Source: a virus | Virus record (IMG/VR): IMGVR_UViG_3300005617_000387 | Span: 1 to 37,968 of that record | Reading direction: 5' to 3' (one strand) | Length of the DNA: 37,968 nt | Shown here: positions 13,655 through 17,101 of the stretch, in pieces | Numbering within the stretch: position 1 is the stretch's first letter | Layout: every line of letters begins with the position of its first letter | The notes under the pieces: model-generated | What the model was told of the DNA's origin: nothing | Databases searched by the model: none | What the model saw: only the letters and a program-made list of their open reading frames with translations | Made by a program: the position numbers and the translations under genes

Positions 13655-15442
13655 TTAAGTCACAATGATAGGCATACACGTCCCCTGAATGGTGACTGTT
13701 CCCCTCACCCGCCCGTAGGAAATAGAGCCTTGCGAGGAAACCCCATTCGCTCCGGGGTAAATCTCAAAATACCCGAACAGATACGTGGGGGTTATCCGGA
13801 TAATGTGTTCCCCCTGAAGAACGGGGAGAGCGTTTACGATGTCGGTCAGGTCGAGCAGTACGTTTACTTTGCCTGGTCGCCCAACGGCGTTCAGGCTCGT
13901 TGCCCAGGGGCCGCCGAGTTTGTCGGTGTATTCCACGTCGTCTAAAAACAAGCGCAGCTTGTAGGGGAGAAAACGACTCTGAGTAAGCGCCCAGAACAGT
14001 CCCTGCGTTGTCCCTGGACTGCCGCCATAGACCTGCAACCCCACAGGCGATTCGAGCGGTTTGGTTTGCATCCTGAACAGGACGCTTGTAACGGATGGGA
14101 CAGATGGCGGGATGTCCAGATGGAATTCCGCGCTGATCACCTCAAATCCGGGAGTGGGTGTATAGGGAACCGATGGGTCTGGGGTTGCGCATACGCTTTC
14201 GGTGGCGCTGTAGGAGGCCACAAACCCGGTGGGTTGGACGTGGATTTTCAGCGCCGACACGTCCCTGACCACGTCGACCATCACGTCGGTGTCAGAGGTA
14301 CGGCGGTCTGAGATACTTGATATGGTGAGCTTGGCGCTGCGTCCGCCGCCCGAAGACCGCTTATAGGTGGCGTCCATTACATAAAAGTCGTCTTCAACGT
14401 CGAGGTACACGTAGCTGTCGGTCACGCCCCGGTAGGACAGGCGGACGGTGTCTCCCACCTTAATCGGCTGGCGGAGCATTTGCACTTCCACGTCATAGGT
14501 GACAATCGGCTTCAGATGGCGAGCCATATACGCCTCGGCGATGAGCTTCAGGGTATTGGCCGCCAGCGCCAGGGCCGCCTTCGACCCGGATATAGGGCGA
14601 ACCTGAGTAAGCTTGACCACCTTTGTTCGCAAGCCGTACAGGGCAATGCTGGCCGTGTCCTCGATGTAGTAGTACGATGTTCCATCCTGATTCAGGGCTG
14701 ACTTGAGGGGGTAAGTTCCGGCGGTGGCTCCGGCCATGGTCAAATCGCCGGTTCCCTGACCCGCTCCCAGAGCGATCACCCGATTGACAATCTCGTCGGA
14801 GGTTACCGTCTGCCGGATCGGACGCGGGATTGCCACCTCGGTTTTGAAAATAAAATTGGGCTGAATTTGCCCGGCCAGATTCGTCAGGCGGACGCCAGAA
14901 GCGCTGCCGAATGTTCCAAAATCGAGAGTGTTCAGCGCCCCCAGGCGGTAATGCTGCCCCCAATTGTCCCGGATCAGATCAATCGCCGCCTGGACGCTTT
15001 CGCCCTCGAATGTGACCGACGTATTCCCGATCTCATTCAGGACGTGAACGCCCCAGCCCGCCTGAAGCGCCAGGTCGCTTAACACCGAGGCCACCGGGGT
15101 GTTGGAATATTTTCGGCTAAAGCCAACGGTGACGAATCCGAGCGCCCTGAGCTGGTCATTGGCCGTGATCTGGAGCCTGGCCTCGCCGGTGTTTTCGGAC
15201 AGATCCACATGGCTGTACAGGTAGCGCCCCAGATAGCCGTCCTGTTCGTCGAACACGTCGAACTGGCAGCCGGGGGCAATGAACGCCGCCCGCTCGTCGC
15301 CGGCCGGGATGGTAAAGGTCAGCTCCCCCACCCTGTCGAGGGACACCGTGTTATTCAGCTGCAGGACAGTCGTCAACGGGCCGGGACCGATAATCGAACC
15401 GGCGGTGTTGAGAATGTCCACGCGAAAAGGGGTGCGGTTCAT
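13655..15442 (-). CDS. Tail-tip protein, siphovirus Gp37-like/Tal family (595 aa)
   Basis: ATG start at 15442. There is no good Shine-Dalgarno, which is unusual and fits the endonuclease insertion just upstream. The N-terminal 370 residues follow the order of the siphovirus ReqiPepy6 Gp37-like/tail-associated family: an opening beta domain (FRVDILNTAG), then ELTFTIPAGDERAAFIAPG, a second domain with GYLGRYLYSHVD, and YDVEVQMLRQPIKVGDTVRL near residue 330. This is the baseplate-hub fold. Residues about 390-595 are an extra beta-rich region ending in ISYGRVRGTVTIQG. It sits after the distal tail protein, as expected for the tail tip; no peptidase motif is clear. Confidence 0.85.
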   Translation of the reverse strand: MNRTPFRVDILNTAGSIIGPGPLTTVLQLNNTVSLDRVGELTFTIPAGDERAAFIAPGCQFDVFDEQDGYLGRYLYSHVDLSENTGEARLQITANDQLRALGFVTVGFSRKYSNTPVASVLSDLALQAGWGVHVLNEIGNTSVTFEGESVQAAIDLIRDNWGQHYRLGALNTLDFGTFGSASGVRLTNLAGQIQPNFIFKTEVAIPRPIRQTVTSDEIVNRVIALGAGQGTGDLTMAGATAGTYPLKSALNQDGTSYYYIEDTASIALYGLRTKVVKLTQVRPISGSKAALALAANTLKLIAEAYMARHLKPIVTYDVEVQMLRQPIKVGDTVRLSYRGVTDSYVYLDVEDDFYVMDATYKRSSGGGRSAKLTISSISDRRTSDTDVMVDVVRDVSALKIHVQPTGFVASYSATESVCATPDPSVPYTPTPGFEVISAEFHLDIPPSVPSVTSVLFRMQTKPLESPVGLQVYGGSPGTTQGLFWALTQSRFLPYKLRLFLDDVEYTDKLGGPWATSLNAVGRPGKVNVLLDLTDIVNALPVLQGEHIIRITPTYLFGYFEIYPGANGVSSQGSISYGRVRGTVTIQGTCMPIIVT

Positions 15443-15450
15443 GTTATAAT
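15442..15450 (+). promoter_or_regulatory. Extended -10 promoter of the first HNH endonuclease gene
   Basis: TGTTATAAT: the TG of an extended -10 (15442-15443), one base, then a perfect TATAAT (15445-15450). No convincing -35 is present, as usual for this class. It overlaps the start codon of the tail-tip gene on the other strand. Predicted start about 15457, which is also the first base of the structured leader. Confidence 0.65.
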
Positions 15451-15456
15451 ACGCTC

Positions 15457-15510
15457 AACAGTCTAGCCCGACGGGGCGAAAAGCGAGAGACACTCGCTCG
15501 CCTGACTGTT
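15457..15510 (+). ncRNA. Three-way-junction leader RNA of the HNH endonuclease
   Basis: Three helices can be drawn with no mismatch. P1 is AACAGTC (15457-15463) with GACTGTT (15504-15510). P2 is GCCC (15466-15469) with GGGC (15474-15477). P3 is AGCGAG (15482-15487) with CTCGCT (15493-15498). P1 starts at the predicted transcription start, and the endonuclease ATG lies 32 bases after P1. A similarly shaped leader precedes the EDxHD endonuclease at 27401. Confidence 0.55.
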
Positions 15511-15542
15511 ACTTTTCGAGTGTGATGACAGGAGTGTATGTC

Positions 15543-16310
15543 ATGCCCAGCCTCAAACGCTGTAGAGTCTGCGAACAAGAACTCCCCGCAACTGCTGATT
15601 TCTTTTATCGCGCTCCGCTGAATAAAGATGGATTCCAGAACCTTTGCAAAAACTGCAAACGTGCCTATGGGCGTCAATACCGCCAAAACAACCCCGAAAA
15701 GGTCAGGGAGAGCGCGCGAAAAACCCGCCAGAAACAAAAGGGGTACAAGCGCGAGTACATGCGCGAATACCGCCAAACGCATTTTGAGGAACTGAAAGCC
15801 AAGCGCAAGGAAGCATATTGGCGTGATCCTCAAAAAGCCCGTGCCGCCGCCATTCAATGGAAAAGGGATCATCAGTCGCAAGCGAATGAACGGAGCAGAG
15901 AATGGCGACATACCCACAAGGAACTCTACCGCCAGAGGGCTAAGGTCGCTGTGTCCCGCCGTCGCGCCCGTAAGGAATCCGTCGGTCATTCTCTGACTGA
16001 ACAGGAATGGGCGCAAACGTTGAAGGACTTTAATAACTGCTGTGCTGTGTGCGGTAGACCAGTCGGACTTTGGCACACTATCGCTATGGATCACTGGATA
16101 CCGCTTAAGCACGGCGGTGAAACAACGGCAAGAAACGTCATCCCTCTTTGCCATTCGCTGAATGGCGGAGAGGATGGATGCAATAACCGGAAGTCGGCTA
16201 AAATGCCCCTGGATTGGCTCGTAGAGCGTTATGGCGAGAAAAAGGGCAAGCGCATCTACGAGAGAATTTCGCAATATCTCGCTCAAAGAAACATTTTGCT
16301 CCAGCGGTGA
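15543..16310 (+). CDS. HNH homing endonuclease, antisense within the tail genes (255 aa)
   Basis: The start is the ATG with AGGAG 9 bases upstream. Residues 7-38 form a zinc finger (CRVC ... CKNC) typical of phage HNH proteins with the pattern 'FY.....DG..N.CK.C'. Residues about 45-145 are a long, very basic helical region (YRQNNPEKVRESARK onward) that would grip DNA. The HNH domain occupies about 165-215: structural cysteines 167, 170, 203 and 213, catalytic MDHWIPL (His184) and Asn198. The 28 bases at its 3' end overlap the 3' end of the distal-tail gene on the opposite strand. This gives a free-standing homing gene lodged exactly between two conserved tail genes. Confidence 0.88.
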   Translation: MPSLKRCRVCEQELPATADFFYRAPLNKDGFQNLCKNCKRAYGRQYRQNNPEKVRESARKTRQKQKGYKREYMREYRQTHFEELKAKRKEAYWRDPQKARAAAIQWKRDHQSQANERSREWRHTHKELYRQRAKVAVSRRRARKESVGHSLTEQEWAQTLKDFNNCCAVCGRPVGLWHTIAMDHWIPLKHGGETTARNVIPLCHSLNGGEDGCNNRKSAKMPLDWLVERYGEKKGKRIYERISQYLAQRNILLQR

Positions 16311-17101
16311 TAAAGTTTGACCGTCCCGGCGATGGCTCCGGCGGTCAGTTTCATGGAATTGTTTCCCAGGGCCAGCAGCAGCCATTCAATCTGGTTGCTG
16401 TTCTGGGCGAAGCTGCCATAGGCGTCAACCCCGTTGTACTGAACGGTCTTTGCCAGGAAGTCAAATTCCAGCCGGTCATTGGCGTTCAGGGTCCCATTCC
16501 AGTTGAAATTGGCCCCGCTCTCAGTGTCCTCTATCGTGATGTTGGACATACTGGAGGCAGCGTTGGGTTGAATGAGCATGTAGCCGCCATCCGCCTGGGC
16601 CGTTCCCGAATTAATGAGCGTCCAGGTGTAGGGAGATGTGGTAATGGTCTGGGTATCGAAATGACCGTCCATGATCAGACCGGAATCCAAAGTCTGGCCC
16701 TGATCCAGGAACGAAACATCGTTTATATCCCACCAGTACGGGCTGTCCAGGGAAAACTTGAGAGTCACGTCCTGGTAGCTGGGATAATTCCGGGCGATAG
16801 CAATATGGCTGAGGCTGGTCATCTTGGCGTAGGTGCAGCGCCGGTCGCCGTTCCACATCTGCGCGTAGAGGACGTTCCGGCCCAGGCCCATGGTCCGCGC
16901 CAGTTCGTCATACTTGGCATCCACCGGGGCAATCAGGCGGCACTTATGGGTGACATCGCTCGCTTTCAACACCAGCGGCCCCCCATCCGGGTCGAACGTT
17001 CCATAGGGTAAATCCACGGCGATATTGCGCCCGTTCACCGTGAACTGCGACTCGCCCTCTGGCTCTGGAAGGGTGCAGGTGCCGAACTTATAGACTCTCA
17101 C
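16283..17101 (-). CDS. Distal tail protein-like (272 aa)
   Basis: GTG start in a GTGA overlap with the preceding gene. The N-terminal half follows the layout of distal tail/phage tail-family proteins: a strand-rich start (YKFGTCTLP, FTVNGRNIAVDLPYGTFDPDGG), a middle with GLGRNVLYAQMWNGDRRCTYAKM, and the conserved LKFSLDSPYWWD near residue 138, typical of the 'F..pdPyw' motif of Dit. Residues 160-265 form a second beta domain (galectin-like in Dit proteins). The C-terminus YHRWSKMFL is encoded in the 28 bases shared with the antisense HNH gene and may have been altered by that insertion. Confidence 0.82.
   Translation of the reverse strand: MRVYKFGTCTLPEPEGESQFTVNGRNIAVDLPYGTFDPDGGPLVLKASDVTHKCRLIAPVDAKYDELARTMGLGRNVLYAQMWNGDRRCTYAKMTSLSHIAIARNYPSYQDVTLKFSLDSPYWWDINDVSFLDQGQTLDSGLIMDGHFDTQTITTSPYTWTLINSGTAQADGGYMLIQPNAASSMSNITIEDTESGANFNWNGTLNANDRLEFDFLAKTVQYNGVDAYGSFAQNSNQIEWLLLALGNNSMKLTAGAIAGTVKLYHRWSKMFL

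Follow-up and report, generated by a model that had tools for sequence, protein, structure and literature searches.

The HNH endonuclease gene at positions 15543-16310 of the window (the whole stretch of viral DNA analysed here, 37,968 nucleotides, IMG/VR record IMGVR_UViG_3300005617_000387) is preceded by an int-alpA RNA, a member of the known Rfam family RF02996. Comparison of this leader with its relatives suggests that int-alpA leaders are likely to exert a C4-like antisense control of translation initiation, in which the loop of one helix would pair with either of two sites around the translation start of its own mRNA.

An HNH endonuclease gene lies between phage tail genes

The window is a siphovirus-like genome fragment that encodes terminase, portal, capsid, Dit, tape measure, primase and ParB-like proteins. 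The HNH gene (plus strand, 255 amino acids and a stop codon) has a Cys-rich N-terminal part and the HNH at its C-terminal end, and its product matches PF01844 (E 1.2e-6) and the endonuclease VII-type family phrog_1035 (E 5.8e-19). It runs antisense to the tail genes on both sides, no intron family was matched around it in the Rfam scan of the window, and it is probably a free-standing homing endonuclease gene. The method used found no relatives of the protein in viral contigs, and in named phages it finds distant endonuclease homologues only. Relatives of the neighbouring tail proteins (13655-17101), sought for an empty site, were absent from the collections searched.

We further note that the minus-strand tail gene at 13655-15442 begins directly at the border of the endonuclease promoter and lacks a clear Shine-Dalgarno (SD) sequence of its own; its upstream region looks as though it had been lost to the insertion. 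A 313-amino-acid open frame at 15444-16385, also on the minus strand, extends antisense across the whole endonuclease gene and its leader and is probably not a gene.

The leader is a member of the int-alpA RNA family

Comparison of the whole window with 4227 Rfam families gave a full-length covariance-model match to int-alpA RNA at 15456-15522 on the plus strand (model positions 1-71), with 57.2 bits against a gathering cut-off of 35.8 (E 1.9e-9). This match over the full length identifies the three-helix leader as a member of an already known family, and the multi-branch design that the initial annotation did not know from the literature is thus RF02996. The family is typed as an sRNA in Rfam and named after its integrase and alpA neighbourhoods; no stated function was found for it there. 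The motif was probably defined by Weinberg and co-workers in 2017. The one paper found to name int-alpA deals with STEC genomes and simply lists the motif, in a table and in its text. The window copy has the same helices and conserved junction letters as the Rfam motif, which is known from integrase/alpA neighbourhoods of bacterial mobile elements, typically between an integrase and an alpA-type gene, whereas the window copy stands between tail genes and, with a promoter of its own, precedes a free-standing endonuclease gene. In named phages the window leader gives short, weak matches only, and the leaders of contigs L097 and L113 give none. The window was also considered for a HEARO/IscB omega RNA, for which it holds no Rfam match.

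Pattern scans gave further copies of the leader in viral contigs and in bacterial genomes, Stutzerimonas and environmental Pseudomonas strains among them, and about 70 relatives were compared. Removal of near-duplicates left an alignment of 65 non-redundant leaders from several phyla, in which kinship of some degree remains. Across these leaders, pairing in helices P1, P2 and P3 reaches 94.3%, 254 cells are double-changed, and the covariation score of the three helices is 0.656, compared with 0.152 for shuffled alignments and 0.05-0.143 for slid partners. Compensatory changes in homologous leaders, the lack of which had been named in advance as grounds for abandoning the structure, are therefore present. 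The junction segments CUAG, CGAAAAGCG and CGCCUG all occur in the window and are invariant or nearly so in the 65 leaders, a conservation that is partly imposed by the search, as CTAG and CGAAAAGCG were required by all patterns and CGCCTG by most.

In the window, P1 pairs AACAGTC (15457-15463) with GACTGTT (15504-15510) over 7 bp, and P2 is the 4-bp hairpin GCCC-GACG-GGGC (15466-15477, with 15466-15469 paired to 15474-15477); both helices are as initially annotated, as is the distance of 32 bases from P1 to the HNH start codon at 15543. The 6-bp P3 of that annotation (AGCGAG/CTCGCT, 15482-15487 with 15493-15498) is indeed the minimum free energy fold of the single sequence, in which part of the antisense segment described below is hidden. 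The register conserved in the family is the 5-bp GCGAG/CTCGC (hairpin 15483-15501, with 15483-15487 paired to 15497-15501), which leaves AGACACTCG in the loop and the segment ACACTCG free. The window is able to form either register. The folding energy of the leader is unremarkable (z = -1.43, 17 of 200 shuffles being as good) and by itself is no proof of structure.

One loop is complementary to two sites around the translation start

Reading the copies side by side revealed a family pattern in which the P3 loop has complements at two places, just behind P1 (site A) and at the SD sequence (site B). In the window, the loop segment ACACTCG (15490-15496) has a perfect complement in CGAGTGT at 15517-15523 (site A; duplex -10.4 kcal/mol), which could serve as a pseudoknot partner or as a target in trans. 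Its first six bases also pair with GAGTGT at 15532-15537 (site B; duplex -9.2 kcal/mol), and site B overlaps the SD sequence AGGAG (15530-15534). The initial annotation thought a control function reasonable, and a control role at the ribosome-binding site is likely.

The specificity of this pattern was assessed by giving each of the 65 non-redundant leaders the loops of the other leaders and applying a simple additive complementarity score. Within scan zones that were chosen after viewing the data and were identical for own and foreign loops, own loops reached 7.44 at site A and swapped loops 4.74 (z 20.2); the corresponding scores in the SD zone were 6.57 and 5.37 (z 8.9). Of own pairs, 71% passed at both sites, compared with 10% when loops were swapped. 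The claim for site B is the weaker one, because a purine-rich SD sequence gives any C/T-rich loop some complementarity, as the swapped mean of 5.37 reflects. In the L003 group and in L006 site A is kept and site B is almost absent, and some leaders have the reverse, so the two sites may not belong to one switch. The seven copies found later in other genomes with the Rfam model mostly agree with the two-site pattern: complementarity is clear at both sites in three (L157, L158 and L066b), clear at site A only in L155, moderate at both in L159, and near the swapped level in L153 and L154, the loop of L153 having been trimmed in parsing.

Two viral contigs carry the leader twice. The two int-alpA leaders of L113 (4107-4171 and 7804-7869, the second preceding a Rha gene) have different loops, each of which fits its own sites only. 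On a 43.9-kb contig, two paralogous genes of endonuclease type, separated by about 2.8 kb, each have an int-alpA leader (L155 and L156), with the same loop and site A kept and with a different P2. Across the window, CGAGTGT has four matches, including the leader's own two, against 4.15 expected; this chance level gives no sign of further targets in this phage.

Identical loop bases are used for both sites in 45 of 46 leaders, so that one leader can hold just one site at a time. This mutual exclusion, together with the near-invariance of the junction letters in 65 leaders from several phyla (itself partly search-imposed), would fit a purely cis-acting, riboswitch-like device. It is conceivable, if doubtful, that the junction (CUAG, CGAAAA and CCUG) binds a host factor or metabolite, and we hold just as tentatively the idea that the bound factor would decide whether the P3 loop lies at site A, with the SD free, or at site B, with the SD blocked. 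Families with site A and no site B would then be permanently ON, the downstream genes share no metabolite theme, and nothing points to a ligand.

The Shine-Dalgarno sequence is presented in a hairpin loop

Behind site A lies a further hairpin, P5 (15525-15544; ATGACA-GGAGTGTA-TGTCAT, with 15525-15530 paired to 15539-15544). Its loop contains the SD sequence, and its stem takes in the first two bases of the ATG. Across the family, an SD hairpin scores above threshold in 60% of leaders and in 10% of shuffles. Neither site B nor the SD hairpin is part of the Rfam model, and both are present in the window.

Hairpins at the ribosome-binding site control the homing endonucleases I-TevI, segB and Aeh1 mobE in T4 and similar phages (PMC2988022), so such control is known to be needed, and here too leader structure is found at the ribosome site of a homing endonuclease gene. 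The local hairpin that sequesters the SD in T4-type leaders has a counterpart in P5, with the SD in the loop instead of the stem. To this extent the initial comparison with T4-like leaders that hide the ribosome-binding site stands; an antisense loop with two targets is the principal conserved feature, and this is nearer to the C4 RNAs of phages P1 and P7. Repression of the T4 endonucleases at the ribosome site relies on other structures (PMC2988022). The T4-type leaders are single hairpins, each at its own gene, that lack an antisense loop and have no RNA family in common. In I-TevI and similar T4 genes late promoters bypass the hairpin, whereas the sole promoter-like site seen in the window lies upstream of the whole leader and no T4-type late promoter skips the hairpin. 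We regard it as improbable that P5 alone hides the ribosome site with the three-way junction being incidental: P5 does exceed its shuffles and does hold the SD in its loop, but conservation is much stronger in the junction, which constitutes an Rfam family, than in P5, and the complementarity of the loop to its sites is specific.

Behind P1 the linker has a U-rich, G-poor composition (44-48% T) and short T-runs (mean 2.8), and no terminator was found at this place in the window leader. An intrinsic terminator in this position is thus unsupported for the family in general. A leader that is cut, or that ends in this U-rich stretch, might nevertheless yield an RNA of 60-70 nt that silences the endonuclease mRNA in trans, a possibility that we consider open to considerable doubt. 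We would advance no more firmly the suggestion that its targets are the phage's own mRNA and those of co-infecting related phages, in a form of immunity or exclusion such as C4 provides for ant. The sRNA type of int-alpA in Rfam and the composition of the linker are consistent with trans action, as are loops that vary between phages and are specific to their own sites. There are precedents, too: C4 is a processed leader RNA (PMC5320573), and IsrK, a leader RNA with early termination, works in trans as an activator of the read-through form of its own mRNA (PMC4825925). The IsrK-anrP system of Gifsy-1 resembles the int-alpA leader in that its RNA leads an antirepressor mRNA, adopts alternative structures and also occurs as an sRNA, and differs in activating in trans and in belonging to another structure and sequence family (RF01394). 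Against such an RNA stand the short T-runs and terminator-free leader of the window, and the perfect cis targets, which suffice for a local switch.

A promoter element often abuts the leader of endonuclease genes

An exact match to an extended -10 promoter, TGTTATAAT, lies at 15442-15450 on the plus strand, six bases before the start of P1 at 15457 and with a predicted transcription start at about 15457. The extended -10 ending at 15450 upstream of the HNH gene had been annotated correctly; a consensus scan found no two-hexamer sigma-70 promoter at the window leader. A strong -10 element occurs at a gap of 2-9 bases before P1 in 56% of the 16 endonuclease leaders, as opposed to 19% at control gaps, and a good one precedes P1 in 13% of the remaining, non-endonuclease loci. 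This enrichment in endonuclease loci supports a transcription start at 15457 and, with it, the earlier suggestion that the leader has its own promoter. Some of the copies with a clear promoter oppose their upstream neighbour (the window, L021 and L028) and others do not, as judged by eye.

The leader recurs before unrelated endonuclease and antirepressor-type genes

Pfam and PHROG searches behind the viral copies placed the leader before several unrelated endonuclease families; the proteins for the Pfam search were picked as informative-looking, and the counts therefore show occurrence and are not unbiased frequencies. These families comprise HNH (the window, L015, L030, L099 and L104), HNH_3 with or without AP2 (L028 and L100), endonuclease VII type (L021 and L086), GIY-YIG (L029 and L090), NUMOD3/AP2 (L108) and PD-(D/E)XK (L082), along with one weak endonuclease match (L007). 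Antirepressor-type genes also follow the leader, with P22_AR_N (L089), Rha (L095 and L113), KilA-N (L115) and ORF6N (L066) domains, the last in a bacterial genome record instead of a viral contig. Other downstream genes encode methyltransferases (L118 and L080), a PAPS-reductase-like protein (L116) and proteins of no assigned type. The int-alpA leader is thus, by these domain matches, a recurrent element before unrelated endonuclease families and antirepressor-type genes in phage contigs.

Upstream of the bacterial int-alpA copies are phage integrases in nine of the ten cases tested, eight of them with Arm-DNA-bind_3, a domain known from P4-type enzymes. A planctomycete MAG (G028) has four int-alpA copies over the cut-off (L066, L157, L158 and L159), outside the Proteobacteria, and these stand before ORF6N-like and other phage-like genes.

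Because the element borders a gene that is probably mobile, it might be suspected of acting as DNA, for example as a homing target or structure, and not as RNA. This is very improbable in view of the G-U pairs retained in the helices, the coincidence of predicted transcription start and element start in several loci, and the copies before non-endonuclease genes.

A proposed C4-like mechanism

C4 RNAs (RF01695; phages P1 and P7, and the P4 CI RNA) resemble the int-alpA leader in being leader-encoded three-way-junction RNAs with an antisense loop. They also have two targets on the mRNA that they lead, the first directly downstream of the RNA and the second at the ribosome site, and the window leader has a complementary site at both places. 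In phage P1, where C4 regulates the antirepressor, the RNA is followed 4 nt behind by a2 and then by b2 upstream of the icd start, which is the same order of parts. C4 is described as a blocker of the ribosome site (PMC5320573; PMC12197685), and the P4 CI RNA, which pairs with two sites of the transcript that carries it, causes termination (PMC4825925). These parallels lead us to propose that the P3 loop controls translation initiation as an antisense element. C4 differs in having two separate antisense segments, a' and b', where int-alpA uses one loop for two sites, and in P1 it has targets upstream as well (a1 and b1). The window leader was considered as a C4 member and rejected, there being no C4 match in 15200-16600 at E <= 1; phage P1, for its part, has no int-alpA match over the cut-off.

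In the mechanism that we propose, transcription would start at the first base of P1, and the three-way junction of P1, P2 and P3 would keep the P3 loop accessible as an antisense finger. This loop would pair with the translation start region of its own mRNA, either at site A behind P1 or at site B on the SD sequence, which P5 would present in its loop. Occupation of the SD region would keep the endonuclease weakly translated. The arrangement could be a two-state switch in cis, or it could combine pairing in cis at site A with a second, trans-acting leader RNA at site B. Repression as the outcome, its mode in cis or in trans and a trigger for release are what we infer from these features, and the leader probably keeps endonucleases and other phage switch genes turned down.

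The pairing might instead act mainly by causing transcription termination, perhaps Rho-dependent, in the leader or early gene, as the P4 CI RNA does with its two sites. The immunity leader of phage P4 matches the Rfam C4 family, and the association of bacterial int-alpA copies with phage integrases would suit such control. Termination is nevertheless unlikely to be the main effect: site B on the SD and P5 presenting the SD both point to translation, and the window leader contains no intrinsic terminator. In the P4 immunity leader itself (L160, 821-1106), both C4 (RF01695) and isrK (RF01394) match over their cut-offs, and c4-a1b1 falls just under its own at 44.1 bits.

Implications for phage biology

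What is added here to int-alpA RNA is its position before unrelated endonuclease and antirepressor genes, an abutting promoter, a loop with two complementary sites and a hairpin at the SD sequence. Measured against the one paper found to name int-alpA, the two-site model is in our judgement new for this family. The two complementarities offer a concrete mechanism for this family that can be tested by mutation.

More speculatively, and as a view that we would not yet favour, int-alpA RNAs may constitute a second, independent C4-like class of phage antisense RNAs, a portable module whose loop letters act as a private code. If so, unrelated homing endonucleases would have acquired the module, as would antirepressors and integrase-linked operons, and a resident phage would silence the same gene of an incoming relative and not those of others. 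If two-site control is correct, selfish endonucleases of unrelated folds and phage lysogeny genes would share one RNA device, which would bear on how phages tolerate free-standing endonucleases.
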